Assembly (NCBI GenBank): GCA_002632355.1
Contig: NSJJ01000004.1
Span: 62,001 to 126,000, forward strand
Reading direction: 5' to 3'
From: Sulfuricella denitrificans
GTDB lineage: Bacteria; Pseudomonadota; Gammaproteobacteria; Burkholderiales; Sulfuricellaceae
Length of the DNA stretch: 64,000 nucleotides
Shown: positions 3,986 to 21,789 of the stretch, piece after piece
Numbering within the stretch: the first letter of the stretch is position 1
How the letters are laid out: each line of letters begins with the position of its first letter
The notes under the pieces: generated by a model
What the model was told of the DNA's origin: nothing
Databases searched by the model: none
What the model saw: only the letters and a program-made list of their open reading frames with translations
Made by a program: the position numbers and the translations under genes

Positions 3986-4268
3986 AGGATTCTTCCACTA
4001 ATGCCTTGAGTTTCTGGCTGGCATGAAATGTAACAACACGCCTTGCTGTAATTGGAATTTCTTCTCCGGTTTTCGGGTTACGACCCGGGCGCTGAGGTTT
4101 GTCACGCAACTCGAAATTGCCAAAACCAGAAAGCTTGACGCCATCCCCACTTTCCAGCGCTATACGAATTTCTTCGAAAAAAGACTCGACCATGTCCTTA
4201 GCTTCACGCTTGTTCAGGCCTACATGTTCAAACAGCATATCTGCCAACTCGGCTTTGGTGAGCGTCAT
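3960..4268 (-). CDS. ihfA: Integration host factor subunit alpha
   Basis: IHF-alpha pairs with IHF-beta to bend DNA sharply at specific sites. The 102-aa length is right, and the arm motif [14 protein letters not shown] contains the Pro that intercalates between base pairs. The N-terminus [14 protein letters not shown] is typical of the alpha subunit. It follows pheT by 10 bp, the classic pheST–ihfA linkage, and overlaps the MerR-family gene downstream. Confidence 0.97.
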
Positions 4269-4278
4269 CAGTTATTCC

Positions 4279-6639
4279 TCAAGCTCGGAGTGTCGCATTG
4301 AAACGGGTGGCAAGAATATCCTTGATATGGGCCATGACCGTTTCAACTTCATCATCCGTTAAAGTTTTCTGAGTATCTTGCATCAGCACCTTGAATGCAA
4401 GACTTTTTTTACCTAAATCAATACCTTTGCCACGATATACGTCAAACAACTTGAGATCCGTGACCGTTACAGGAAGGTGAATTCTTACGCCATCCAGCAG
4501 ATCCTGGACGCTCATCGCCTCATCAACGACAATAGCCAGATCCCTTCTAACGGCAGGAAATCTGGATATTTCACTGAAGGCGGGTATTTTTCGCTGCATT
4601 AACGCCGCAAGATCGATTTCAAACATGGCTGCCGGCTGAGGCAGGTCGTACTTCTGTTGCCAGCGGGGATGCAAAGTTCCAATCCAGCCCACCGGTTCAT
4701 CATTCAGCAACACATGGGCAGATTGTCCGGGATGGAGCGCCGGATGGATAGATGCCACAAACTTGAGCTCCAAGGGGTAGCACAAGGATTCCAGGTCAGC
4801 TTTGATGTCAAAGAAATCAATCTGCCGCGAAGCTTCTCCCCACTGTTCTGCCTTGACAGTGCCGAAGCATAAGGCCGCTGCGCGCTGCGGCTGAACATAA
4901 CCTGCTTCCTCAGGGAAAAAGCAGCGTCCGATTTCGAAGATTCTGACACGCTCATGCTTGCGATTGAGGTTGAACTGTAAAACATCCAGCAGACCGCCCA
5001 GCAATGTAGATCGCATCACACCGAGCTGACTTGCGATAGGGTTTTGTAACAATACAGGATTATCGTTACCGGCCAGATCGGCTTCCCACTGCTTGTCTAC
5101 AAAACTGTAGGTCACCACTTCCTGATAATCGCGTGCAATCAGCAGTTGACGAATTTGACTCATCCCCTGCAAGGATTCATTTTGAGGAAGCAGCGTCAGG
5201 GCGCTGTGCGGCGGCAGGGCCGGAATATGATCATAGCCATGCAATCGCGCCAGTTCTTCGATTAGATCGGACTCGATGGACAAGTCGAAGCGATAGCTCG
5301 GCGGTGTTACATGAAAATGACCATTTTGCTCTGTAAATGCAAAATCGAGACGTTGCAGAAGTGATGAGATCACAGTTACGCCAAGATCAATGCCGAGAAC
5401 GCGTCGCGCTCTATCCGCACGCAAAACGATAACATTACGCGGCGGCAACGCTCCAGTGACCTCTGACACGCCTCCTGCTTCGCCACCACATATTTGCAGA
5501 ATCAAGGCAGATACACGCTCCAGCGCATCACGGGTAGCAGCGAAGTCCACGCCGCGCTCAAAACGATAGGATGAGTCCGTTGACAAGCCGAGGCGGCGTG
5601 CCTTGCCAGCAATCACGTCGGGATCAAAAAAGGCGCTTTCGAGCAAAATATCTGCAGTCCCATCCGACACCGCACTGCTTTCCCCTCCCATGATCCCTGC
5701 CAGGGCAAGCACAGACACATCGTCCGCAACAACCAGCATGTCAGGATCCAGCTTTATATTCTGCTGGTTCAGCAACACCAGTTCCTCGCCCGGCCGGGAA
5801 AAACGCACCTGAATTTTCCCCTTGAGTTTAGCCAGATCGAAGGCATGCAACGGCTGACCCAATTCCAGCATGACATAATTGGCAATGTCCACCACGGCAT
5901 TAATGCTGCGCACGTCCGAGCGGTCCAGTCGACGCACCATCCAGTCCGGTGTTGCCGCAGCCAGATTCACACCTCGAACCACCCTGCTGCAATAACGCGG
6001 ACATGCGACAGGCTCCAATATCTGGATTTCGGGTTTATCTGAAAGAGTAGGCTGAAAAGAGAGAAAATCCTTTTTCTGCCCCAGCCTGATTCCGGTCACT
6101 GCGGCAACTTCGCGCGCGACGCCCAGCATGCCCAGGCAATCGCTTCGGTTGGGCGTGAGTTTGAGGGTAAATATATGGTCATCGAGGTCCAGATAATCCC
6201 GAATGGAAGTGCCAACCGGCGCATCGGGGGGCAACAGCATCAGGCCATTGCTCTCTTCTGCCATGCCCAGTTCCCTGGCCGAGCACAGCATGCCGAAAGA
6301 TTCCACATTCCTGACCTTTACCTTCCTGATCGAGATACCGGGCAACTCTGCACCAACCATAGCACATGGCACACGCGCACCTGCATGAACATTCGGCGCA
6401 CCGCAAACGATTTGCAGGGGTTCCACTTCACCCGCATTGACCTGGCATACATTCAAGCGATCTGCATTGGGATGTTTTTCCACTGACAGAACTTCCGCGA
6501 TCACAATTTTTTCAAAAGCAGGCGCTACGGACTCCAAACCTTCCACTTCCAATCCTGCCATTGTAAGGGCATGGGCCAATTGATCAGAATCGAGCGCAGG
6601 GTTTACGAAAGTACGTAACCAGTTTTCCGAGAATTTCAT
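4279..6639 (-). CDS. pheT: Phenylalanine--tRNA ligase beta subunit
   Basis: This 786-aa protein is of normal length for bacterial PheT. An N-terminal tRNA-binding OB fold spans about residues 40–150 (HPNADRLNVCQV). The B3/B4 editing and B5 domains follow, with TPNRSDCLGMLGVAREVA and the SYRFERGVD region. The C-terminus is the ferredoxin-fold anticodon-binding domain (SRFPAVRRDLAIVVDE). With PheS it forms the (alpha-beta)2 enzyme that charges tRNA-Phe. It lies 73 bp after pheS in the same operon. Confidence 0.98.
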   Translation of the reverse strand: MKFSENWLRTFVNPALDSDQLAHALTMAGLEVEGLESVAPAFEKIVIAEVLSVEKHPNADRLNVCQVNAGEVEPLQIVCGAPNVHAGARVPCAMVGAELPGISIRKVKVRNVESFGMLCSARELGMAEESNGLMLLPPDAPVGTSIRDYLDLDDHIFTLKLTPNRSDCLGMLGVAREVAAVTGIRLGQKKDFLSFQPTLSDKPEIQILEPVACPRYCSRVVRGVNLAAATPDWMVRRLDRSDVRSINAVVDIANYVMLELGQPLHAFDLAKLKGKIQVRFSRPGEELVLLNQQNIKLDPDMLVVADDVSVLALAGIMGGESSAVSDGTADILLESAFFDPDVIAGKARRLGLSTDSSYRFERGVDFAATRDALERVSALILQICGGEAGGVSEVTGALPPRNVIVLRADRARRVLGIDLGVTVISSLLQRLDFAFTEQNGHFHVTPPSYRFDLSIESDLIEELARLHGYDHIPALPPHSALTLLPQNESLQGMSQIRQLLIARDYQEVVTYSFVDKQWEADLAGNDNPVLLQNPIASQLGVMRSTLLGGLLDVLQFNLNRKHERVRIFEIGRCFFPEEAGYVQPQRAAALCFGTVKAEQWGEASRQIDFFDIKADLESLCYPLELKFVASIHPALHPGQSAHVLLNDEPVGWIGTLHPRWQQKYDLPQPAAMFEIDLAALMQRKIPAFSEISRFPAVRRDLAIVVDEAMSVQDLLDGVRIHLPVTVTDLKLFDVYRGKGIDLGKKSLAFKVLMQDTQKTLTDDEVETVMAHIKDILATRFNATLRA

Positions 6640-6712: not shown

Positions 6713-7758
<1,046 letters not shown>

Positions 7759-7770
7759 AGGTTTTGCAGC

Positions 7771-8130
7771 TTAAGCGCTGAGGCTGGCTTTAGCTTGCTC
7801 TGCAATCCGGGCAAATGCCGGTTTGTCGAACACGGCCAGATCGGCCAGGACCTTGCGATCCATGTCGATCGCTGCCTTCTTGAGGCCATTGATGAACACG
7901 CTGTAGGTCATACCCAGTTCACGAGCCGCTGCGTTGATACGAACGATCCACAGAGCACGGAACTGACGCTTGCGTTGACGGCGGTCACGGTAAGCGTATT
8001 GCCCAGCCTTCATTACCGCTTCTTTCGCGATACGATAGACGTTCTTGCGGCGGCCGCGGTAACCCTTGGCCATATCCAGTACTTTTTTGTGACGGGCGCG
8101 AGCCGTTACACCACGTTTAACTCTTGGCAT
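7771..8130 (-). CDS. rplT: 50S ribosomal protein L20
   Basis: At 119 aa it is very basic, with the family signature [18 protein letters not shown] and [18 protein letters not shown]20 binds 23S rRNA early in 50S assembly. In enterobacteria it also represses its own operon by binding the rpmI leader; whether that occurs here is not visible. It follows rpmI by 11 bp. Confidence 0.98.
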
Positions 8131-8141
8131 TTACGGTCTCC

Positions 8142-8339
8142 TTACGCGTAGGGCATCATGGCGCGAACCTGACGCATGTTGCTTTCCGCAACCATGGTCG
8201 TACCGCGCAACTGACGTTTACGTTTGGTGGTTTTCTTGGTCAGAATATGACGCAAGTGCGAATGGGTGCGCTTGACGCCGCCACCGCCCAGAGCATTGAA
8301 GCGCTTTTTTGCGCCGCTCTTGGTTTTCATCTTAGGCAT
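8142..8339 (-). CDS. rpmI: 50S ribosomal protein L35
   Basis: This 65-aa basic protein matches L35: [14 protein letters not shown] near the start and [16 protein letters not shown] in the middle. A strong CAGGAGTTG Shine-Dalgarno lies just upstream. It sits in the invariant infC–rpmI–rplT order. Confidence 0.98.
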
Positions 8340-8455
8340 TTACAACTCCTGGTTTTATAACATGGATCTGGGCGTTCTCCGGCGGAGACACTTGCTGGCC
8401 TGGATACCACTTGTTCTAGCTATCAGCCGTTGGCTGACAACTGAATTCTTTATTG

Positions 8456-8974
8456 CTACTTTTTCTTTGGCGACAACACCATCACCATCTGCCGGCCTTC
8501 CATCTTGGGAAACTGCTCAACCACACCGTATTCGGTCAGATCGGCTTCCACCCGCTTCAGAAGACGCATGCCCAATTCCTGATGGGTAATTTCACGCCCG
8601 CGAAAACGCAGGGTAATTTTCGTCTTGTCGCCCTCTTCGAGAAAGCGGATCAGGTTACGCAACTTGACCTGATAGTCCCCTTCGTCGGTTCCTGGACGGA
8701 ATTTCACTTCCTTGACCTGGATCTGCTTCTGCTTCAGCTTGGCTTCGTGCTGTTTCTTGCTCTCGCTGTATTTGAATTTTCCATAATCCATCAAGCGACA
8801 GACTGGTGGTTGCGCTGTAGGCGCAATCTCGACCAGATCAATCTCTGCATCTTCCGCCATCTGCATGGCGGTGGACAAACTTACGATGCCGAGCGGCTCA
8901 CCTTCAACACCCACCAACCGGACTTCCTGAGCGGTAATTTCACCGTTGATCCGGCTTTCTTTTCCCTGAGCGAT
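8456..8974 (-). CDS. infC: Translation initiation factor IF-3 with ATC start codon
   Basis: The conserved IF-3 N-terminus ([20 protein letters not shown]) lies upstream of the first usable ATG/GTG/TTG. Reading back, the frame reaches ATC at 8974–8972, eight bases after a GGAG Shine-Dalgarno, and gives a 172-aa protein of normal IF-3 length. The N domain, lysine-rich linker helix (about residues 75–95) and C domain ([18 protein letters not shown]) are all present. IF-3 proofreads start codons, and rare starts (AUU in E. coli) let it repress its own synthesis; an ATC start implies the same loop here. A TTG at 8917 would remove conserved residues. Confidence 0.95.
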
Positions 8975-9001
8975 AGCTAAATCTCCAAATCTATTAAAAA
9001 A

Positions 9002-10918
9002 TTAAGCCGCGCTTCCCTTGTCGGCCAGTTCCCTGGACAGCCGCTCCAGCAATGCTTCCAGCGGCATCTGACCAAGGTCCTCGCCCTTACGGGTTCGCAC
9101 GGCAACTAGGCTAGAGGCCACTTCCTTGTCCCCGATAACCAGGAGATATGGCAGCCTCTGCATGCTATGTTCGCGGATTTTATAGGTAATCTTCTCATTT
9201 CTCAAGTCCAGATGAACCCTGAAACCATTTTGTTTCAAGCTTTCCGTCACCTGGCGCGCATATTCAGCCTGAGATTCGGAAATATTCAGCACTGCCATCT
9301 GAACCGGGGCCAACCAAAGCGGCAGCGCACCAGCATGATTCTCGACCAAAATGCCGATGAAACGCTCCAGGGAGCCCAGCATCGCGCGGTGCAACATCAC
9401 AGGAACTTTACGGGTATTATCCTCATCAACAAATTCGGCCCCAAGACGCCCCGGCATGGAGAAGTCCACCTGAATTGTCCCGCATTGCCAGGAACGGCCA
9501 ATGGCATCCTTGATGTGGAATTCAATTTTCGGGCCATAGAAAGCACCTTCACCCGGCAGTTCGTCCCAAGTCATGCCTGAGGTCCGCAAGGCTGCGCGCA
9601 AGGCATTCTCTGACTTATCCCAGATTTCGTCAGAGCCAACCCTGCCTTCTGGACGCAGCGCCAACTTCACCGCTACATTATTAAAGCCAAAATCTTTATA
9701 AACCTTGAGTACTTGCGCATTGAAAGCCGTCACCTCAGACTCAATCTGCGCTTCAGTACAAAAGATGTGACCATCATCCTGCACAAAACCTCGCACCCGC
9801 ATCAAGCCGTGCAATCCACCAGATGGCTCGTTGCGATGACATGAGCCAAACTCACCATAGCGCAACGGCAACTCCCGATAAGAACGCAGATCGGAACTGA
9901 ATACCTGGACATGCCCCGGGCAGTTCATCGGCTTGATCGCGTATTCATGTTTCTCAGACTCTGTCGTGAACATGCCTGCCTTGAAATGCTCCCAGTGGCC
10001 AGATTTCTCCCAAAGGACACGGTCGATGATTTGTGGGCAACGGATTTCCTGGTAACCGTTGTCCAGATACGCGCGCCTCATATACTGCTCAATCACCTGC
10101 CACATCGCCCAGCCCTTGGGGTGCCAGAACACCATGCCAGGCGCCTCATCCTGCATGTGAAACAGATCCTGCATCTTGCCAATCTTGCGGTGATCGCGTT
10201 TTTCAGCCTCTTCAAGACGATGCAGATAGGCTTCCTGATCTTCCTTTTTCGCCCATGCCGTGCCATAGATGCGCTGCAGCATCTCGTTCTTCGAGTCGCC
10301 GCGCCAGTAGGCACCGGCCACCTTCATTAGCTTGAACACCTTGAGTTTACCGGTCGAGGGCACATGCGGGCCGCGGCACAGGTCGGTGAAATCGCCCTGA
10401 GTGTAGAGCGACAGATCCTCTTCACTGGGAATCGATTCGATAATCTGGGCCTTGTAGTGCTCTCCTAGATTCTTGAAAAAATGAATCGCATCGGTACGCG
10501 ACACCACCTTGCGCTCAATTTTCAGATCGGCCTTGACGATTTCTGCCATCTTTTTTTCGATGGCCTGCAAATCCTCCGGCGTGAAGGGGCGCTTGTAGGA
10601 AAAATCGTAGAAAAAACCATCCTCGATCACCGGGCCGATCGTGACCTGTGCTTCCGGGAACAGGGATTTAACGGCCTGGGCCAGCAGGTGCGCCGCGGAA
10701 TGCCGGATCACGTCCTGACCTTCCGCATCCTTGTCAGTCACGATGGCAAGGACCGCATCGTGCTCGATCAGGAAAGAGGTATCGACCAGCTTGCCGTTGA
10801 CCTTGCCAGCCAGCGCCACACGGGCCAGGCCGGCGCCGATATTGGCGGCCACCTCGGCCACTGTCACCGCTTGTTCAAACTTGCGCTCGGAGCCATCGGG
10901 TAGGCGAATTACAGGCAT
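9002..10918 (-). CDS. thrS: Threonine--tRNA ligase
   Basis: This 638-aa protein has the full bacterial architecture. A TGS domain covers residues 1–61. The editing domain contains [18 protein letters not shown]. The class II catalytic core has the zinc-binding Cys in [10 protein letters not shown] and further His ligands, and a C-terminal anticodon-binding domain follows. It heads the infC–rpmI–rplT–pheST–ihfA row, with infC starting 27 bp after its stop. It is separated from the upstream tRNA-Val by a terminator. Confidence 0.98.
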
Positions 10919-10935
10919 AAAATATAGTCCGGAAA

Positions 10936-10961
10936 CAAAAAATGCGGCAGGGCCGCATTTT
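10936..10961 (-). terminator. Terminator after tRNA-Val
   Basis: A 9-bp perfect stem (10940–10948 with 10952–10960) with a 3-base loop is followed, reading the minus strand, by a run of T. It lies between tRNA-Val and thrS. Confidence 0.8.
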
Positions 10962-10970
10962 AGGAAAAGC

Positions 10971-11047
10971 TGGTAGGCGCGATTGGACTCGAACCAACGA
11001 CCCCCACCATGTCAAGGTGATGCTCTAACCAGCTGAGCTACGCGCCT
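10971..11047 (-). tRNA. tRNA-Val(GAC)
   Basis: The 77-nt reverse-strand cloverleaf has acceptor stem AGGCGCG/CGCGCCT and anticodon loop TTGACAT, giving GAC. The T-arm is GGTTCGAGTC and CCA is encoded. Confidence 0.96.
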
Positions 11048-11105
11048 AAGGGTGGCCGAATTATACGGAGAAGTCGGCCGTAACACAACGAAAACCTGCG
11101 CGAAC

Positions 11106-14100
11106 TTACCCAACCCACTTGCGCGCGTTGCGGAACATGCGCAGCCACGGGCCATCCTCGCCCCAGCCATCGGGGTGCCAGGAGTGCTGTACGGTGCGGA
11201 ACACCCGTTCAGGATGCGGCATCATGATGGTGAAACGGCCATCCGGCGTAGTCAGGCCGGTGATGCCGTCCGGTGAACCGTTCGGGTTAGCCGGGTAGCT
11301 GCTTGCGGGCTGGCCGTGATGATCGACATAGCGCAACGCCACCAGCGCTTTCTGCTGCGCCTCGGTTGTGGCAAATTCGGCATAGCCCTCACCGTGCGCA
11401 ACCACGATGGGCAACCGGCTACCGGCCATGCCATCAAGAAATAGCGAGGGATTCTGCGGCACTTCGACGGTAACGAAACGTGCTTCGAACTGCTCGGACT
11501 TGTTGCGCACGAAATGGGGCCAGTTTTCCGTTCCGGGAATGATGGAGTGGAGATTGCTCATCATCTGACAGCCATTGCACACCCCAAGGGCGAAAGAATC
11601 ACTGCGCCGGAAAAATGTCTCGAATTCGTCTCGGGCACGGGCATTGAACAGGATGGACTTGGCCCAACCCTCCCCTGCGCCCAGCACGTCGCCATAGGAG
11701 AAGCCGCCGCACGCCACCAGGCCTTTGAAATCCCGGAGCGAAACTCGTCCGGCAATGATGTCACTCATGTGCACGTCCACTGCTTCGAAGCCGGCGCGAT
11801 CAAATGCCGCAGCCATTTCCACCTGGCCGTTCACGCCCTGCTCACGCAAGATTGCCATGGCGGGGCGAATACCGCTGCTGATGAAGGGCGCGGAAATATT
11901 GTCCTTGATATCGAATGTGGGGGCTGCCTGCAGCCCTGTATCGGCCTGATCGAGAATGCGATCGAATTCCTGCTGCGCGCATTCGGGATTGTCGCGCAAT
12001 TTCTGCATCTGGCAGGTGGTTTCAGACCAGGCGCATTGCAAGTCCACACGGCTTTCACTGAAGACCTCCACCTCATTGCGCACAATACGCAAGCGGTCGT
12101 CCTGGCTGAGTGTGCCGATGACGTGAAATTCGCTGCGCATGCCGGCGTCAAAGAAAGTTTGCATCACCACCGGCGTATCCGCGCGGCGCACCTGCAGAAC
12201 CGCGCCCAGTTCCTCGTTGAACAGCACACCAAAAATACGGCTCGAATAGCTGCCGGCAGGAATTTCGGGCTCGGCCTTGCCATTTTCTTCCACATCGCTG
12301 CGGATCTGCTCGTAACACAATTCATCGATATCCAGCGTGACGCCGACATGACCGGCGAACATCATTTCGCACAGGGAGGCAAACAGGCCACCGTCGGAAC
12401 GGTCGTGGTAAGCCACGATCTTGCCATCACGGTTGAGTTTCTGCACTGCCTCGAAAAACGCCTTGAGGTGCCCGGCGACCAGCACGTCTGGCGCTTCATT
12501 GCCCACCTCGCCGTAAACCTGAGCCAGAGCAGAGCCGCCAAGGCGCGCACGGCCACGACCAAGATCAATCAGGATCAGGTCGGTCTCACCCAGATCGGCA
12601 CGCAACTGGGGCGTCAGTGCGCGACGCGCATCCGGTGTGGGCGCAAAGGCTGTAATGATCAGCGAAAGTGGCGAAGTCACCGACTTCTTGACGCCCTCAT
12701 CTTCCCAGACGGACTTCATCGACATGGAGTCCTTGCCCACCGGAATGCTCACGCCAAGCTCAGGACAGAACTCCATGCCGACCGTGTGCACGGTGTCATA
12801 CAGCGCCGCATCCTCGCCCGGATGCCCCGCCGCCACCATCCAGTTGGCGGAGAGCTTGATATCACCGATATCATCGATCAGGGCGGCAGCAATGTTGGTC
12901 AGCGCCTCGCCGATCGCCATGCGCCCGGATGCGGGGGCATCCAGCAAGGCCAGCGGGGTGCGTTCGCCCATGGCAAAGGCTTCGCCGATATAAGTGTCGT
13001 ATCCCATGGTGGTCACCGCTACGTCCGCAACCGGCGTCTGCCATGGCCCGACGAACTGGTCACGCGCGGTGAAGCCACCCACGGTACGGTCGCCAATGCT
13101 GATGAGGAAAGTCTTGTCGCCCACGGTGGGCAGGCGCAGCACACGGTAGGCCGCATCTTTCAATTCCAGATTTTCCACATCGAACGCTTTCAGCTCGCGC
13201 TGTGCGTGAGCCACCGTACGGGTCATGCGCGGCGGCTTGCCAAGCAGAACGTTCATGTCCATGTCTACAGGCCTGTTGCCGAAATGACTATCTACCACCA
13301 CCAGTTGCTGCTCGTCCGTGGCCTCGCCGATCACGGCATAGGGGCAGCGCTCGCGTTCGCACATGGCGGAAAAAATTTCCAGGCTGTCCGGGGCGATGGC
13401 CAGCACATAGCGCTCCTGCGACTCGTTGGACCAGATCTGCATCGGCGACATGCCCGGCTCCTCCGAAGGCACATCGCGCAGGCGGAAGCGCCCGCCCCTG
13501 CCCGAGCCATGCACCAGTTCGGGCAGGGCATTGGAAATACCGCCCGCGCCAACGTCATGGATGGAAAGAATCGGGTTTGCGTCGCCCATCTGCCAGCAGC
13601 GGTCGATGACTTCCTGGGCACGGCGCTGCATTTCCGGGTTGCCGCGCTGCACCGAATCGAAATCCAGATTCTCGGCATTGGCGCCGGTATCCATGCTGGA
13701 GGCCGCACCCCCACCCAGACCGATCAGCATGCCGGGACCACCCAGCTGGATCAGCAGCGCGCCGGGCGTGACCTCGCCCTTGAACGAATGCGGGTCGGCA
13801 ATATTGCCCACTCCCCCAGCCAGCATGATGGGCTTGTGATAGCCTCGCATCTCGCCGGCAACTTCTTCCTCGAAAGTACGGAAATATCCTGCCAGATTGG
13901 GGCGGCCGAATTCGTTATTGAAAGCCGCCGCGCCAATCGGTCCATCGAGCATGATCTGCAGAGCCGAAACGATGCGCCCAGGCTTGCCGTAACTGCCTTC
14001 CCAGGGCTGGCTGAAACCGGGAATATTGAGATTGGAAACAGAAAAACCGCACAGACCCGCCTTGGGCTTGGAACCCGTGCCAGTCGCGCCCTCGTCACGA

Positions 14101-15120: not shown

Positions 15121-16722
15121 TTATGAGACTGTGATCCGGCTTCTGCTACAGTTCGCCACACCCTTGCCGCTTGTACGCATCAGCGGGCTTCGGGTCGCAA
15201 CGATAGCCATCACACGCCAGAATGCCGTCATCTGGCGATAGCCGAAATTTTCCAGCAGCGCGACGCCATATAGTTTGAGCGTATGTGAAAATTTTCTCTC
15301 GCCGGGAAATGCCAGTTCGTTCAGCAGCAAAGCGCTCGTGGAATGCAACACACCCAACCCGATGACAGCCAGCAGGAAAGTCCAGAATGCCTGCCCTGAA
15401 ATCAGGCCGGACAGCCATAACAATGCCATCACCGCGTAGCCCAGCATTTCCAGCCAGGGGCCAAGCAATCCGAACAGCAATATGAATGGAAAACTCATCC
15501 ACCCCACGGCACCGCTTTTGCGATTAAAAAGTATCTGACGATTCATCTCCAGACTCTGTAGCAGGCTGGTCTGCTCGTCCATGTATCTGGTTCTTGATGA
15601 ATCCCGGCTTTCCGGCCCTGCTTCCCAGCACAGCGGATCTGGAACATGGCTGATGCGATAGTGCTTGTGCTCACGCCGCGACACCCGGTGAATGCGCGCC
15701 ACCAGTTCCATGTCCTCGTTCAATGCGCCAGAGGCATAAGCTCCGGCGGCAAGCACGGTTTCCTTGCGAAACACGCAGAAGACCCTGGATGTGATCAGCA
15801 TGGCGTTGATCCGGGACCAAAACATCGGCGCGAACCGGACGCTGCGCAGATGCTCAACAATCTGGAATAGCGCGACCCAGCAACGAATGCTGCCCATAAA
15901 GCCCTGTTGCAAGGCGCTTCCATTGGCGACACCGACTGTGGCGCATGCCGCAACGACATCCGGTCCTCTCTGGAATGCCCGTTCCATTGCATACAAACTG
16001 TCTCGACGCAGGATGAAATCGGCTCCCATGTTGCAGTAAAGCGGGTAGCGCGCGCAATTGAGCGCAGCATTGAGCGCATCCGCCCTGCTGCCGCCTTCCT
16101 TGTCCACCAGCCTCAGGCCGGGGTAAGAGGTGGATGCGTGTATGCCTTTTACATGCATGCCGGACAAACGTTCGCCGTAAGCTTCCGGAAAAGGGATCAA
16201 TGAAAATTCATGCGCCAGCGCTTCCTGCTGCTGCCCCTGGGGATCGTCGCTGACAACGATGACTTCAAACTCGGGATAATCGAGTTGCAACATGGCATGC
16301 ACAGTGGCAATGGCTGCTTCTGTGTCATTTCCGGCCGGAACGATGATGCTGATGGGGATGACATGTCGTGTTTCAGCACGGAGAGCATCAGCGCCCTGCT
16401 CGCGCAGAGAGCGCCTGATCATGAGAAATGAAGCCAGATTGAAGAATAGAAAACTGCCATAAAAAACAAAAAAATAGAGCAGGAAAAACCATTGCAGCAG
16501 CGGCACGGCATCCATCAATGCTCCCTGGAACGATGCCAATACCAGCCCCCAGTCGAACTCAGGACGCGGCGCGGGCGGCGGGGGCGGAAGCGAAGCAAAC
16601 AGGGCGTCATAATGCAGGGCGAGCGGCGTGCCATCCGTGGACAGCCCTTCAGCCAAATCCGCCGGTACCGGCCCGGCGCCATGGCCAAGCACAGGATCGA
16701 GTCTCAGGTGTTGCTCATTCAT
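15121..16722 (-). CDS. Membrane GT2-family glycosyltransferase with altered catalytic motifs
   Basis: This 533-aa protein has a proline-rich cytoplasmic start (about residues 1–60) and a hydrophobic segment at about 76–103. A GT-A fold of family 2 follows, with several hydrophobic segments after about residue 400, as in cellulose/PNAG-synthase-like enzymes. Recognisable pieces are ISIIVPAGNDTEAAI, GGSRADALNAAL and LNEDMELVARIHR. Three conserved spots are unusual: the opening PAYNE reads PAGND, the metal-binding DAD reads GAD in CNMGADFILRRDSL, and the acceptor-site RxRW region reads RYMDEQTSLLQSL. Its start overlaps the end of the HEAT gene by 8 bp. It is probably a polysaccharide synthase by descent; activity is doubtful. 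Confidence 0.82.
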   Translation of the reverse strand: MNEQHLRLDPVLGHGAGPVPADLAEGLSTDGTPLALHYDALFASLPPPPPAPRPEFDWGLVLASFQGALMDAVPLLQWFFLLYFFVFYGSFLFFNLASFLMIRRSLREQGADALRAETRHVIPISIIVPAGNDTEAAIATVHAMLQLDYPEFEVIVVSDDPQGQQQEALAHEFSLIPFPEAYGERLSGMHVKGIHASTSYPGLRLVDKEGGSRADALNAALNCARYPLYCNMGADFILRRDSLYAMERAFQRGPDVVAACATVGVANGSALQQGFMGSIRCWVALFQIVEHLRSVRFAPMFWSRINAMLITSRVFCVFRKETVLAAGAYASGALNEDMELVARIHRVSRREHKHYRISHVPDPLCWEAGPESRDSSRTRYMDEQTSLLQSLEMNRQILFNRKSGAVGWMSFPFILLFGLLGPWLEMLGYAVMALLWLSGLISGQAFWTFLLAVIGLGVLHSTSALLLNELAFPGERKFSHTLKLYGVALLENFGYRQMTAFWRVMAIVATRSPLMRTSGKGVANCSRSRITVS

Positions 16723-17800
16723 GAACTGCCGCCATGCAAGCCTCTTTTAATTCTCGCTCTGCCATGACGTGATGCAGCATGTCGCGCGCATCACGGTCGG
16801 TCTGGATGTCCTTGATATGGCGCAGTTCGTCGATACTCATTCCGCGCAGCAGCGACAAGGCTTGCGCCGCACGGTAGCGAACCCACCACTGACCATCCCC
16901 CAGCATATCTGTCAGCAGCGCGCCATCCTCGTGCATGCCGACCCTGCCAAGCGCCTTCGCCACATGCACCCGCACGTGCCAGTTGGCATGACGGGCCAGT
17001 GCGCGCACCGCTTCAAGCGCTTCAGGCGTTGTAAGTCCGTCAAGACAGGCATTCAGCAGCCTTTCGTCTTCCTCCGGACGGGAGAGAATGCGGTTGATAA
17101 GCGGCACCGCCTCAGCGGGCGCGATTTCCAGCAGGAAACGGAGCAACAGCCAGGATTGATGTCCAGAAATCGCCCCGATGGCATGGAGCAAAGGTCCAGC
17201 CACCCGCTTTGAGCCTGCAATCTGAAGCACTTCCAGCACGGCCTCGTAGCGCCAGTTTGTGCGCTCCGACAGGAGCGGAATCAGCAAAGGAATCGCTCTA
17301 TCCGCATCAATCTGCACCAGGGCGCGAGCTGACGAAAGGGATAACGCAGGACTGTCGTCAGTCAGTATTATCAGTAACTGATCCCATGTGCTTGCAAGCT
17401 GCAGATTCCCTGCCGTCCTGGCAGCCAGGCAGCGAGAATTGAGGCTGTTTTTTTGTAACATCCGGTTGACCGCTGCCGGGATGCGTACCTGTCCAGCCAG
17501 CTGGTCAAGGCTGTTTCTGGCTTCAATGCCCAGAGACTCATGCAGATGATTCCATAAAGCGAGAACATGCGGCAGATCAAGGCGGGAAAGTGGTGGCAGC
17601 ACATCGGGCTGCCCATAAAGGCCGGACATCAGCAACGGGCGCCAGCGCTGAAGCGCACTTTCGCGCTGTTTTCGCTGCAGCAGCAGCCACAACTGCAATA
17701 AAAACAACCACAACAGAAAAAACCCGCTCAGCGCCAGCGCCGCCGCTCCGGCCCAGAAGGCCAACGCAACGCTTGCTTCAGTTATGAGAGGGAGTACCAA
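16715..17800 (-). CDS. Membrane-anchored HEAT-repeat protein
   Basis: This 361-aa protein has one strong N-terminal hydrophobic segment (about residues 10–40) ending in a basic RKQRE stretch, so the bulk is cytoplasmic. From about residue 140 it shows repeating helical pairs of HEAT type, with phrases such as LSSARALVQIDADRAIPLL, HANWHVRVHVAKALGRVG and WWVRYRAAQALSLL. HEAT arrays serve as protein-binding scaffolds. The start is a TTG inside the end of the TPR gene with no Shine-Dalgarno, suggesting translational coupling. The next Met would delete the membrane anchor. It probably works with the downstream glycosyltransferase. Confidence 0.82.
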   Translation of the reverse strand: MVLPLITEASVALAFWAGAAALALSGFFLLWLFLLQLWLLLQRKQRESALQRWRPLLMSGLYGQPDVLPPLSRLDLPHVLALWNHLHESLGIEARNSLDQLAGQVRIPAAVNRMLQKNSLNSRCLAARTAGNLQLASTWDQLLIILTDDSPALSLSSARALVQIDADRAIPLLIPLLSERTNWRYEAVLEVLQIAGSKRVAGPLLHAIGAISGHQSWLLLRFLLEIAPAEAVPLINRILSRPEEDERLLNACLDGLTTPEALEAVRALARHANWHVRVHVAKALGRVGMHEDGALLTDMLGDGQWWVRYRAAQALSLLRGMSIDELRHIKDIQTDRDARDMLHHVMAERELKEACMAAVHE

Positions 17801-18149
17801 GCGGGTGCACTTGGAGTTTCGTTGATTCGGGGGGCGAAATCACCGGCAGCATGGCCCTGCCTGCAAGATAATCGCTGTTGTCAGGTTCTGTTTTCAGCAA
17901 GCGGTTGTACTGATCAAGCGCCTCGGCATGCTTATCCTGCCAGGCAAGAATCCGGGCTAACAGAAAGCGGGCCTCCTGATCCTCCGGGTGGCCAGTCAGC
18001 CATTGTTGCAGCATCTCCTCAGCATCGCTCAGTCGCGAATCCTCGACCATTATCCTGCTCTGGTCGAATATTCCTGAAGCACCAAATGCGGGTAAAATTG
18101 CCGACACAAAAAGACTTAGCAGCAAAGTGGCAAACAATATAAATCTCAT
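17778..18149 (-). CDS. Short exported TPR protein, possibly the stump of a YaiO-type outer-membrane protein
   Basis: This 123-aa protein has a signal peptide (residues 1–23, ending AFGA) and then about two TPR helices pairs (EDQEARFLLARILAWQDKHA and a following LDQYNRLLKTEPDNSDYL). YaiO/PelB-type proteins begin this way and continue into more TPRs or a beta barrel. Here the pattern breaks after YLAGRA into a non-repetitive tail and stops, overlapping the HEAT gene by 23 bp. Known linkage of YaiO-type proteins with family 2 glycosyltransferases suggests the gene is a shortened member, but a genuinely short protein is possible. A TATAAT-like box (18158–18163, minus strand) sits only 8 bases before the ATG. 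Confidence 0.7.
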   Translation of the reverse strand: MRFILFATLLLSLFVSAILPAFGASGIFDQSRIMVEDSRLSDAEEMLQQWLTGHPEDQEARFLLARILAWQDKHAEALDQYNRLLKTEPDNSDYLAGRAMLPVISPPESTKLQVHPLGTPSHN

Positions 18150-18228: not shown

Positions 18229-18429
18229 CTAGCGAATATGTTCTTTTTTCGCCCGCCACAAGCCGAGGCACTCAAGACCGCAGAAATGATGCACGTAATC
18301 GGTTCCCTCTACGCTCTGCGCTACACTGGATGGAATTTCCGTCATGCACACCTCGCACTGCACAACTTCGCACACATCATCATTCGTGCAGGACTCGACT
18401 TTCGCCCCGTCATGAGTCACATTTGCCAT
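18229..18429 (-). CDS. Small zinc-ribbon-like protein (DUF3330 type)
   Basis: This 66-aa protein has two paired cysteine motifs, CEVC near residue 25 and HFCGLEC near residue 49. The connecting sequence TEIPSSVAQSVEGTDYVHHF is what I recognise as the DUF3330 family. A perfect AGGAGG Shine-Dalgarno lies 6 bases before the ATG. Function is unknown; the cysteine pairs suggest a bound zinc or other metal. It is divergent from nnrDE and not part of an obvious operon. Confidence 0.82.
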   Translation of the reverse strand: MANVTHDGAKVESCTNDDVCEVVQCEVCMTEIPSSVAQSVEGTDYVHHFCGLECLGLWRAKKEHIR

Positions 18430-18505: not shown

Positions 18506-20032
18506 ATGCAAGTTACAGAATTAACTCATAACCAGCCTCTTTACCGCAGTCACGACATCCGCTCAATCGAGCAGGCTGCCCTGAAGCTCTCCCCCGCCCC
18601 TGCGCTCATGGAGCGTGCCGGCAAGGCAGCGGCCGAACTGGCTACACAGTTGTTGGGCAATAACTATGCTGTATTGGTTCTTGCCGGTCCGGGAAATAAT
18701 GGCGGCGATGCGCTGGTAGCGGCACGCATCCTGCAAGAACGCGGATACCGGGTGACCACAGTTCTGACGGGAGACCCCGCCAGACGGCCAGAAGAAGCCG
18801 CAGCTGCATTTCATGCGCTCCAGGAAATGGGCGGCAGTTTTTTGCCCGCCATTCCTGCCGATGGGCGATGGGATCTGATCATTGACGGCTTGTTCGGCAT
18901 CGGTCTGGACCGTGATCTTGACAGCAAATATCAGGAATTGGTGAAGCAGATCAACAGGATGAAAACCCCAGTTCTCTCGCTCGACATTCCCAGCGGACTC
19001 GACAGTGAAACCGGCCAACCCTTCCGCGCTGCCGTGCGAGCTGACCACACCCTCACCTTTATCGGCCTCAAACCCGGTCTTTTCACCGCCTACGGCCCGG
19101 ATTACTGTGGCCAGATTCATCTTGATTCACTGGGCTTGCCAAATGACTTTTTGCCCGCTGTCAGAGGACAACTGATTGGTGCAGACGAAGTCTCCCGCCA
19201 TCTCAAACCTCGCCCACGAAACAGTCACAAAGGCATGCTGGGCAGTGTCGGCGTACTGGGAGGTGCGGAGACCATGGTCGGCGCCGCCATTCTGGCAGGC
19301 AGAGCCGCGCTCTTGCTGGGTGCCGGAAGAGTTTACGTCGGCCTGCTGGCAGAAAATGCCCTGGCACTTGACCTGCAACAGCCAGAACTGATGCTGCGCA
19401 GCCCAGATTCGATGTTTGTGACGGAACTGGACTGTCTCATCATCGGACCGGGACTCGGGCAATCTGCGCAGGCGCTCGGCTACCTAAGACAAGCACTTCA
19501 AAGCAATCTGAAGCTGGTGATTGATGCAGATGCCCTTTCGCTGCTTGGCGCTCACGCAGAACTGCAGGATCTGCTCAAAAACCGCCAGGCCACCAATATA
19601 CTGACCCCCCACCCTGCCGAAGCCGGCCGTCTGCTGAATTGCAGCAACCACGAAATTCAGCAGGATCGCATCGGATCGGCTCAGGTACTGGCCAGTCGCC
19701 TTAACAGCCTGATCGCGCTCAAGGGTGCGGGCACCGTCTGCGCTTTTCCGGATGACACCTGGCATATCAATCCTACTGGCAATCCCGGCCTGAGCAGCGC
19801 GGGAATGGGCGACATTCTCTGCGGCATGATAGGCGCCATGCTGGGACAGCGCCTTTCTGCAGAGAAAGCTGCACTGCTCGCCGTTTACCTGCACGGAATG
19901 GCGGCTGACGAACTGGTCAGGAAAGGCACGGGCCCAATTGGACTGACCGCGACGGAAGTCGCCGCAATGGCACGCAGCCTGATTAACCAGTGGATATATT
20001 CATCACCCAAATGGACGCAACGATTTTATTGA
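18506..20032 (+). CDS. nnrDE: Bifunctional NAD(P)HX epimerase/dehydratase
   Basis: This 508-aa protein repairs hydrated NAD(P)H. Residues about 15–215 are the YjeF N-domain epimerase (GPGNNGGDALVAARIL, DGLFGIGLDRDL). Residues about 230–500 are the ribokinase-like ADP-dependent dehydratase (LTPHPAEAGRLL and GNPGLSSAGMGDILCGMIGA). An AAGGAG Shine-Dalgarno precedes the ATG. The last 36 codons before the tail are duplicated 1.9 kb downstream, where the copy ends in PLPKWLDDC instead of SSPKWTQRFY. The C-terminal tail may therefore have been replaced by recombination, though the catalytic domain is intact. Confidence 0.95.
   Translation: MQVTELTHNQPLYRSHDIRSIEQAALKLSPAPALMERAGKAAAELATQLLGNNYAVLVLAGPGNNGGDALVAARILQERGYRVTTVLTGDPARRPEEAAAAFHALQEMGGSFLPAIPADGRWDLIIDGLFGIGLDRDLDSKYQELVKQINRMKTPVLSLDIPSGLDSETGQPFRAAVRADHTLTFIGLKPGLFTAYGPDYCGQIHLDSLGLPNDFLPAVRGQLIGADEVSRHLKPRPRNSHKGMLGSVGVLGGAETMVGAAILAGRAALLLGAGRVYVGLLAENALALDLQQPELMLRSPDSMFVTELDCLIIGPGLGQSAQALGYLRQALQSNLKLVIDADALSLLGAHAELQDLLKNRQATNILTPHPAEAGRLLNCSNHEIQQDRIGSAQVLASRLNSLIALKGAGTVCAFPDDTWHINPTGNPGLSSAGMGDILCGMIGAMLGQRLSAEKAALLAVYLHGMAADELVRKGTGPIGLTATEVAAMARSLINQWIYSSPKWTQRFY
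19890..19996 (+). repeat. Direct repeat copy A: 3' end of nnrDE
   Basis: About 107 bp, matching 21793–21899 with one mismatch (GACGGAAG here, GACAGAAG in copy B). After the repeat the two sequences diverge but stay alignable (both encode a PKW motif), so the copies come from related, not identical, genes. Confidence 0.93.
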
Positions 20033-20386: not shown

Positions 20387-20578
20387 TTGATCGGTTATGA
20401 CCGGGCAATGCACTCGCTCAACGATTCTGGCGATGCTTGTGGTTGCCCAAGGGGTGATTTTATTGACCTCTACCATGACATGGCATTCCGAGAAAACGGA
20501 GTTTCGCCACTCTTCTACGGTGGGAATCTCTGGCCGCAAGGCGTGCCGCCAAATCCTGTGCCTTACGATCCGAGGTGA
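20387..20578 (+). CDS. Doubtful small ORF, possibly the 3' part of a broken gene
   Basis: The frame is open from the end of the miniature element and encodes about 63 aa from a TTG, with a Pro/Gly/Asn-rich end (PLFYGGNLWPQGVPPNPVPY). I do not recognise it. Its stop lies inside the Shine-Dalgarno of the next ORF, which is a normal operon arrangement. The upstream part may have been lost to the element insertion. The opposite strand is also open here, so coding status is uncertain. Confidence 0.3.
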   Translation: MIGYDRAMHSLNDSGDACGCPRGDFIDLYHDMAFRENGVSPLFYGGNLWPQGVPPNPVPYDPR

Positions 20579-20582
20579 TGCC

Positions 20583-20963
20583 ATGGTTAGATTGATGTCG
20601 ACTATGCTTGCCTTGTTATTCGTTGCGATTTTTCTTGGGGTCGCATACGTTATGTTTCATAGTCTGCCGCCTGGTGAAACATGGCAGACGGTTGGCGTAA
20701 TTGCCTTGGTGCGCGGACTACTTGTCTCCGGCTTGCTGCCACTACTTGTGGTTTGCTCTTACCTGATTATTGGTAATACCCCAAAGCACATTGCATATAG
20801 CGTGGCGCTGTCGCTGCCACTTCTGATTGTGCATGCTGCGGTTTTTGCGTTCTCGGCGCATACAGACGGTTTCAGCTATTGGACTGTTCAGTCTGCTGAG
20901 GCGCTTATCGCTGTTGTCTTGATCTATGTCGGAGTGTTCAAAATCAACCGAGAACAACAATAA
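20583..20963 (+). CDS. Small four-helix membrane protein, unknown function
   Basis: The 126-aa reading from ATG 20583 has a GAGGTG Shine-Dalgarno five bases upstream. It contains four hydrophobic segments (about residues 5–25, 40–62, 70–92 and 100–120), ending with a short charged tail KINREQQ. A longer in-frame reading from 20397 starts without a ribosome site and is less likely. It lies in the segment between the two nnrDE repeat copies and so may have arrived with it. I do not recognise the family. Confidence 0.6.
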   Translation: MVRLMSTMLALLFVAIFLGVAYVMFHSLPPGETWQTVGVIALVRGLLVSGLLPLLVVCSYLIIGNTPKHIAYSVALSLPLLIVHAAVFAFSAHTDGFSYWTVQSAEALIAVVLIYVGVFKINREQQ

Positions 20964-21048: not shown

Positions 21049-21789
21049 AAAGGGGACGCTACCCTATTATTGTGCTAGATTTCTGAAATGCCCAGACTTT
21101 CCAGAACGGTATTTTCCGGTGTTCCACACCACATCACGCAACGCGGCAATAGACGCGAAGACATCTTCTTTTTAGAAGAAGATCGCACGGCATATCTGAC
21201 ATGGCTCAAGGAGTACTGTGAGAAATTCGAAGTTGAAATACTCGCCTATTGCCTCATGACCAATCATATACATCTGGTTGCAGTCCCGACAACCAACGAT
21301 GGTCTGCAGAGAGTGCTCAAACCACTGCACATGCGGTACGCCCAACGTATCAACCGTGCACGGGGTTGGAAGGGACACCTCTGGCAAGGGCGTTTTTTTT
21401 CTTCGCCTCTGGACGAAACTTATTTGTGGGCGGCGGTGCGATACGTGGAGCGCAACCCTGTGCGTGCCGGGATGGAACAGCACGCCGAGAATTACCGCTG
21501 GTCAAGCGCCGCAGCACATTGCGGCAAACGATTGGACGGGTTACTGAATCCGGAATCTGGCTGGAGCAAGCATTTTTCTGTGGTTGAAGACTGGTCGGCC
21601 TGGCTCTCCGAAGGAGATGAAACGGAAGAAATCCAGATTTTGAGGCGGAATGTCGATAAAGGACTGCCCTGCGGTTCTGCAGGCTTTATTGAGAAACTTG
21701 GGAGCCAGGCAGGACGCCTGCTGGAATTTCGTCCTCAAGGCCGACCCAAAAAGGTTAACGATAATGAGTAATAGGGTAGCGTCCCCTTT
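21049..21789 (+). mobile_element. RAYT-type transposase element with terminal inverted repeats
   Basis: 741 bp bounded by AAAGGGGACGCTACCCTATTA at 21049–21069 and its inverse at 21769–21789. The transposase stop codon TAA (21769–21771) is part of the right end. Just before the left end an 11-bp sequence GCGGAATAAAG is repeated in tandem (21031–21052), overlapping the end itself. The right end lies three bases from nnrDE repeat copy B. Confidence 0.82.
21088..21771 (+). CDS. REP-associated tyrosine transposase (IS200-like Y1 fold)
   Basis: This 227-aa single-strand DNA transposase has the HUH motif in MTNHIHLVAVP (about residue 57) and the catalytic Tyr in AAVRYVERNPVRAGM (about residue 118). 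The N-terminus VPHHITQRGNRREDIFF is the RAYT signature. The C-terminal end RPQGRPKK is basic. RAYTs act on short palindromic repeats through their single-stranded forms. The reading frame is intact, so it could be active, and the miniature copy at 20264 may be a substrate. Confidence 0.93.
   Translation: MPRLSRTVFSGVPHHITQRGNRREDIFFLEEDRTAYLTWLKEYCEKFEVEILAYCLMTNHIHLVAVPTTNDGLQRVLKPLHMRYAQRINRARGWKGHLWQGRFFSSPLDETYLWAAVRYVERNPVRAGMEQHAENYRWSSAAAHCGKRLDGLLNPESGWSKHFSVVEDWSAWLSEGDETEEIQILRRNVDKGLPCGSAGFIEKLGSQAGRLLEFRPQGRPKKVNDNE

Follow-up and report, generated by a model that had tools for sequence, protein, structure and literature searches.

A described counterpart of the locus analysed here is the Escherichia coli NfrB/NfrA/YbcH system, in which an inner-membrane family 2 glycosyltransferase (GT2) synthase and an outer-membrane protein of tetratricopeptide repeats (TPR) and a barrel are encoded in one overlapping operon (PMC8669469). 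The same account reports that the substitutions D169A, D267A or W330A each abolish NfrB function, none of the variants complementing in a phage N4 assay (PMC8669469). Processive membrane GT2 synthases combine a GT-A domain with membrane helices and carry a DxD motif, an ED catalytic-base motif and a Q/R-x-x-R-W acceptor motif. We analysed a stretch of 64,000 nucleotides from the 3.09 Mb genome of Sulfuricella denitrificans (GCA_002632355.1, contig NSJJ01000004.1, positions 62,001 to 126,000; hereafter, the window), which contains three overlapping minus-strand open reading frames for a TPR protein, a HEAT repeat protein and a GT2 (Table 1). We consider it somewhat more probable than not that this cassette is what is left of a polysaccharide exporter of the synthase type after its dismantling, and that the HEAT/pseudo-GT2 pair in the inner membrane has been kept for a non-polymerising role.

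Relatives of the HEAT protein were collected by profile searches of the order (33 of 399 genomes at E ≤1e-8, of which 22 at E <1e-60; the 11 weak matches were set aside, as was a second, weak match in G186), the class (12 of 369 genomes at E ≤1e-25) and the phylum (8 of 398 at E ≤1e-30), and the matches in relatives are full-length. Together with a GT2 search, these yielded 36 HEAT-partnered GT2s; G602 (contig end), G464 (HEAT and barrel genes, with no GT2 frame behind HEAT) and weak GT2 matches in G031, G048, G055 and a second place in G005 were left out. Canonical loci outside the genus typically show the order (TPR-)YaiO barrel (TIGR04390), HEAT, GT2, and their GT2s have intact DxD, ED and QxxRW motifs. 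Barrels with an N-terminal TPR region occur in G822, G838, G1040 and G464, so that both the canonical motifs and the longer TPR/barrel versions that the first-pass annotation had suggested looking for exist beyond the genus. In the part of the canonical loci that was checked for such neighbours, some have a gene for a receiver protein ahead of the barrel and one for a histidine kinase behind the GT2; two of the receivers and one kinase were confirmed. Literature searches found no published account of this HEAT-GT2-YaiO cassette.

Since canonical relatives carry the barrel and the full motifs, the window cassette descends from an exopolysaccharide exporter. As in the canonical cassette, its HEAT protein lies directly before the GT2, with a profile match and, in the window, an 8-bp overlap; HEAT has been the partner of this GT2 family since the ancestral form and is not newly recruited. 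Two further arrangements were seen upstream of HEAT in relatives. In G714, the last 47 positions of the YaiO profile lie just before HEAT (L072, G714:C19:3436-3576) and a full barrel is found on another contig (G714:C18:3050-3733), which may represent either relocation of the pore or an assembly break. In the barrel-less HEAT-GT2 loci of G165 (L060) and G056/G141 (L017/L051), HEAT is preceded by similar genes, one DUF192-like and one for a short membrane protein (both named by eye), a hint that these loci occupy the same ancestral place.

Within the genus, sampled by eight genomes including that of the window, HEAT and GT2 are present in five, and all five frames of each are open although identity falls to 30-65%. 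The order TPR-HEAT-GT2, with overlaps, recurs in three other genomes (G005, G002 and G004); the arrangement is therefore beyond chance, and the reading of the three genes as one unit, along with their coordinates, is borne out. In G007, HEAT and GT2 occupy the slot between nnr and purL, where no TPR gene was found. The same genome has in-frame, P/G/S/E-rich extra stretches in HEAT (L018, about 4180-4300) and in purL (7555-11664); the HEAT insert matched only itself among six loci, and the stretches are perhaps a frame-keeping intragenic repeat element. A genome search of G006 found none of the three genes, only weak TPR matches.

The TPR protein of the window has no TIGR04390 match, that is, no YaiO barrel domain. 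Among the upstream genes of cassette loci, to which the comparison was confined, it most resembles the TPRs at the N-terminus of TPR-YaiO fusions (44% over 87 aa, E 3e-19), in keeping with the first-pass view that it stops where its homologues run on into a barrel. The 23-nt TPR/HEAT overlap, which holds the TTG start of HEAT, is shared by the window, G005 and G004, the overlap in G002 being 14 nt; the same 23-nt overlap is found at the barrel/HEAT junction in 10 of 16 canonical overlapping junctions, the other six ranging from 14 to 44 nt. This comparison covered 20 loci, plus G186 from the locus listing, and left out non-overlapping loci such as G334, G066, G386 and G219. Because the protein matches and the junction agree, the TPR gene would most simply be a TPR-YaiO gene with its barrel deleted. 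Chance truncation was considered and ruled out: its length stays at 118-124 aa across the window, G005, G002 and G004, and G001 and G003 keep versions of 107 and 119 aa.

The GT2 of the window reads PAGND, carries G-A-D in place of DxD and lacks RxRW, with R-Y-M-D-E at the aligned Q-x-x-R-W site, just as the first-pass annotation described for the first three. The aspartate of NDG (D159) is still there, and so are both residues of ED (E336 and D337), within N-E-D. The acceptor motif is lost in all five genus GT2s, and the DxD and ED motifs have eroded differently species by species. GAD is peculiar to the window species, in which G replaces D233; the corresponding residues of the other members are DHD, DTD, DVG and DVH. 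DxD is preserved in G002 and G005, and in G004 and G007 D235 is lost and E replaces D337, leaving these two without an ED motif.

Scoring was based on eight residues that 21 canonical GT2s share without exception (in window numbering, D159, D233, D235, E336, D337, Q379 or R, R382 and W383). All eight are present in 24 of the 36 HEAT-partnered GT2s and seven in G321 and G056, and ten proteins have six or fewer. Five of these belong to the genus (window 5, G005 6, G002 6, G004 3, G007 2) and five do not (G100 5, G141 5, G165 2, G395 2, G863 1). The genus retains 20 of 40 catalytic cells, versus 296 of 475 cells at other canonical-invariant columns, and the equally diverged G046 (52/95 other invariant cells) keeps all eight catalytic residues; so does G501, with 74/95. 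Given these figures, the catalytic erosion, as read from the alignment, is selective and not general decay. S125, Y149, E153, D159, K208, D215, N218, N222, R225 and five further residues are invariant in 36/36 GT2s, the eroded ones included.

The genus GT2s have also gained an N-terminal arm. The number of residues before column W78 is 77-83 in all five, versus 9-25 in the other 31 of the 36, and this genus-specific segment, some 60 residues long, shows 68-72% identity in four pairs. Its nonsynonymous divergence (dN) in the pair G002-G004 is 0.18, the lowest of the regions compared (others 0.30, 0.35 and 0.34); the arm is not slower than the GT-A domain between the window and G005 (0.21 vs 0.21) or between G005 and G002 (0.20 vs 0.15). 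Ratios of nonsynonymous to synonymous divergence (dN/dS; NG86, 150 bootstraps) are rough, as dS is near 1. They amount to 0.17-0.33 for GT2 in five genus pairs (bootstrap upper limits up to 0.44), to 0.28-0.31 for HEAT in four genus pairs versus 0.21-0.33 in four canonical pairs, and to 0.12-0.24 for TPR in three pairs, two of which involve species without HEAT and GT2. Of the two motif changes that the first-pass annotation envisaged as shared among relatives under purifying selection, the missing RxRW is common to all five members and GAD is private to the window species.

Genome searches found no HEAT or GT2 match in G001 or G003, both of which still carry the TPR gene beside nnr (64% and 58% identity to the window TPR, respectively). 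In both, a short relic shows that the HEAT gene was once present: G003 has its opening 25 codons (68% to G004, E 2e-6), and G001 a piece of 21 codons from its interior (67%, E 2e-4). The nearest pairs by nnr identity are G004-G003 (0.88) and G002-G001 (0.87), and HEAT and GT2 therefore look like having been deleted twice separately. As the TPR gene outlives HEAT and GT2 in two species, its product would have a role of its own.

The presence of the barrel was judged by whole-genome hidden Markov model searches with TIGR04390. A YaiO barrel is found in 0/8 genus genomes (the PgaA, PelB and NfrA pore types lie outside this model and were not searched for), in 25 of the 26 genomes of one search set, G863 being the exception, and in 1 of 14 of the other (G714). 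The 25 barrel genomes that bear a GT2 all score 7 or 8 of 8; the 26th barrel genome, G464, has no GT2 frame. Eroded GT2s (≤6/8) occur in 10 of the 11 GT2 genomes without a barrel, compared with 0 of 25 with one. A single origin for all ten eroded GT2s is rejected by the approximately unbiased (AU) test (p about 1e-71, from 1000 replicates, a number that the program rates as insufficient for a dependable AU value). A single clade uniting the genus with G165/G395 and G863 is not rejected and is found in the best tree, in which long branches may attract these rows to each other.

Taken in sequence, these data would fit the following course. As the relatives show, the ancestor joined a (TPR-)YaiO barrel in the outer membrane to an inner-membrane GT2 synthase whose HEAT partner was membrane-anchored. 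In the genus, the barrel part is gone, with the short TPR protein as its probable remainder, and the GT2 is without its acceptor motif, its metal and base motifs having disappeared unevenly. The frames have stayed under purifying selection and the GT2 has acquired its conserved arm. By analogy with the NfrB mutants, the HEAT/GT2 pair would no longer polymerise sugar; it would keep the nucleotide-binding half of its site, may still bind a nucleotide or nucleotide-sugar, and would act in the inner membrane as a regulator or as a scaffold that binds ligand, its probable role being ligand binding or scaffolding. Retained ligand binding is proposed because D159 and the K/R-A-D-x-x-N segment are invariant and, in GT2 structures, lie in the nucleotide-binding half. 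More tentatively, and with rather less confidence than in dismantling as such, we suggest that the synthase may have turned into a nucleotide-sugar sensor or scaffold that is bound to HEAT, lacks catalysis and bears a new conserved N-terminal arm, that loss of YaiO opens the way to this change, and that a HEAT/pseudo-GT2 pair outlives its exporter in the genus, in G165/G395 and in G863, with G100/G141 at an early stage.

Several observations weigh against this account. In G002 and G005 the GT2 has kept D159 and the whole of DxD and ED, which makes single-sugar transfer conceivable, most of all there. The GT2 dN/dS values of the genus are higher than those of four canonical pairs (0.11-0.17). 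HEAT and GT2 are not essential, since two species have deleted them, and decay may be under way. The association between barrel absence and erosion (Fisher p 4e-8) is descriptive only, because the rows are related by descent, and only two independent losses are firm, because the AU test rejects one origin for the ten and does not reject the clade named above. G056 breaks the pattern, having no barrel and a score of 7/8; with its genus mates G100 and G141 eroded, it also suggests that the pore was lost before catalysis.

The most serious competitor is slow decay, in which the exporter is dying in the genus and the HEAT and GT2 frames are open only through recent or incomplete loss in each lineage. 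The missing barrel and catalytic residues, the deletions with their relics in G001 and G003 and a constraint on GT2 roughly half as strong as in canonical relatives all agree with it; nevertheless, we hold it to be unlikely. Simple decay is at odds with 5/5 open GT2 frames (and as many of HEAT) at such divergence, with dN/dS far below 1 and a HEAT constraint equal to that of canonical relatives, and with the conservation of a newly gained arm. A changed enzyme, a non-processive GT2 that attaches single sugar units to a lipid or protein and does without export pore and QxxRW, would account for the residues kept in G002 and G005 and for the mannosyltransferase PcManGT as top structural match in VIA-align, and many GT2s do function without QxxRW. 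It fits poorly with the loss of D235 and the D337-to-E change in G004 and G007, with D233 turned to G in the window and with catalytic columns being kept less well than other invariant ones, and we regard it as improbable.

Equally improbable, and touching ancestry alone, is the idea that the TPR gene, instead of being a shortened TPR-YaiO gene, is of unrelated origin and came to lie next to HEAT and GT2 by moving there. TPRs are widely alike and the gene is conserved in G001 and G003 without its neighbours, as such an origin would allow, but of the upstream genes compared, those that it matches best are TPR-YaiO fusions with the same order of genes, and the overlap around the TTG start is that of most canonical overlapping junctions. 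The first-pass annotation had set a decaying exopolysaccharide system against a non-catalytic GT2 scaffold that, with a HEAT partner, has taken on a new role. The former holds for exporter descent and for the deletions in two species and fails, as mere decay, on the selection data; the latter gains from the purifying selection, with HEAT as an ancestral partner. Decay and repurposing thus look less like alternatives than like stages of a single process. The relatives form what may be a graded series of exporter dismantling, in which the pore, then catalysis, then genes are lost and the survivors are under selection. The analysis also describes the HEAT-GT2-YaiO cassette and picks out pseudo-GT2 proteins still labelled as glycosyltransferases by Pfam.

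Table 1. The cassette and its immediate surroundings, in positions of the window
Feature	Position	Strand	Remarks
TPR gene	17778..18149	-	123 aa, ATG; Pfam TPR_19 E 1.9e-10
TPR N-terminus: hydrophobic signal-like stretch, then TPRs	within 17778..18149	-	signal peptide judged by eye
HEAT gene	16715..17800	-	361 aa, TTG; HEAT_2 E 5.3e-18; long N-terminal helix, then solenoid
GT2 gene	15121..16722	-	533 aa, ATG; Glycos_transf_2 E 1.1e-8; membrane GT-A fold, catalytic residues eroded
23-nt overlap, TPR end/HEAT TTG start	17778..17800	-	same as canonical barrel/HEAT junction
8-bp overlap, HEAT/GT2	16715..16722	-	from reading-frame coordinates
GT2 N-terminal arm, about residues 1-66	16525..16722	-	genus members only
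G-A-D instead of D-x-D, residues 233-235	16018..16026	-	GT2 alignment
N-E-D instead of G-E-D, residues 335-337	15712..15720	-	GT2 alignment; E and D retained
R-Y-M-D-E instead of Q-R-x-R-W, residues 379-383	15574..15588	-	GT2 alignment; acceptor motif gone
Cys-rich DUF3330 protein, 66 aa, before TPR gene	18229..18429	-	PF11809; neighbour of the cassette
nnr	18506-20032		divergent from cassette, upstream

The genes adjoining the cassette in the window are nnr, DUF3330, purL and thrS, the last two downstream; no receiver or sensor-kinase gene is among them. The DUF3330 gene, between nnr and the TPR gene, lies beside nnr in 5/6 relatives searched (not in G007), and its product is 72-89% identical in relatives, among them G001 and G003 with neither HEAT nor GT2; it may be the real partner of the TPR gene. 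The thrS gene (9002-10918, minus strand) is 96% identical to that of G005 and 81-82% to those of G002 and G001, which share 94% with each other. Two thrS types in one genus, next to the cassette, suggest replacement by transfer or recombination. Also nearby on the plus strand are a gene resembling REP-associated tyrosine transposases (21088-21771; Y1_Tnp, NF047646 below its cut-off) and a 188-aa reading frame with no Pfam or NCBIfam match (20397-20963).

The AlphaFold 2 model of the GT2 (32 alignment rows; mean predicted local distance difference test score, pLDDT, 84, and <50 for residues 1-29, 33-37 and 518-533) has a GT-A domain with one N-terminal and several C-terminal helices, the fold of processive synthases. 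Its best folds are hyaluronan synthase and cellulose synthase in Foldseek, and PcManGT (Z 28.3, root-mean-square deviation 3.1, 333 aligned) and hyaluronan synthase in VIA-align. A single-sequence search of the PDB gave no match; a profile search did find GT2s. The HEAT model (mean pLDDT 92.8), a solenoid behind one long helix, resembles artificial alphaRep and PP2A scaffolds, a common fold that says nothing of function.

Hyaluronan synthase and the cellulose synthase BcsA thus share the GT-A domain and membrane helices with the window GT2 (Foldseek E 2e-13 and 4e-13; VIA Z 25.6 over 387 and 22.3 over 382 residues), at only 10-17% identity and with acceptor and DxD motifs that the window protein lacks. 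Similarity to the poly-N-acetylglucosamine (PNAG) machinery is weak, both for the GT2 (PgaC_IcaA, TIGR03937, E 5.4e-17; 61.8 vs a curated cut-off of 422.3 bits) and for the TPR protein (PNAG export protein PgaA, E 3.5e-5; 22.2 vs 366.65 bits). NfrB of E. coli differs in having DxD, TED and QxxRW motifs and a c-di-GMP-binding MshEN domain, and its operon in having the barrel that the window lacks; the text searched makes no mention of a HEAT partner (PMC8669469). The HEAT-GT2-YaiO cassette of other Proteobacteria, known here from genomes, comes closest: it has the same HEAT and GT2 families, order and overlaps, whereas the window cassette is without barrel, receiver or kinase neighbour and combines eroded catalytic residues with an N-terminal arm on its GT2.

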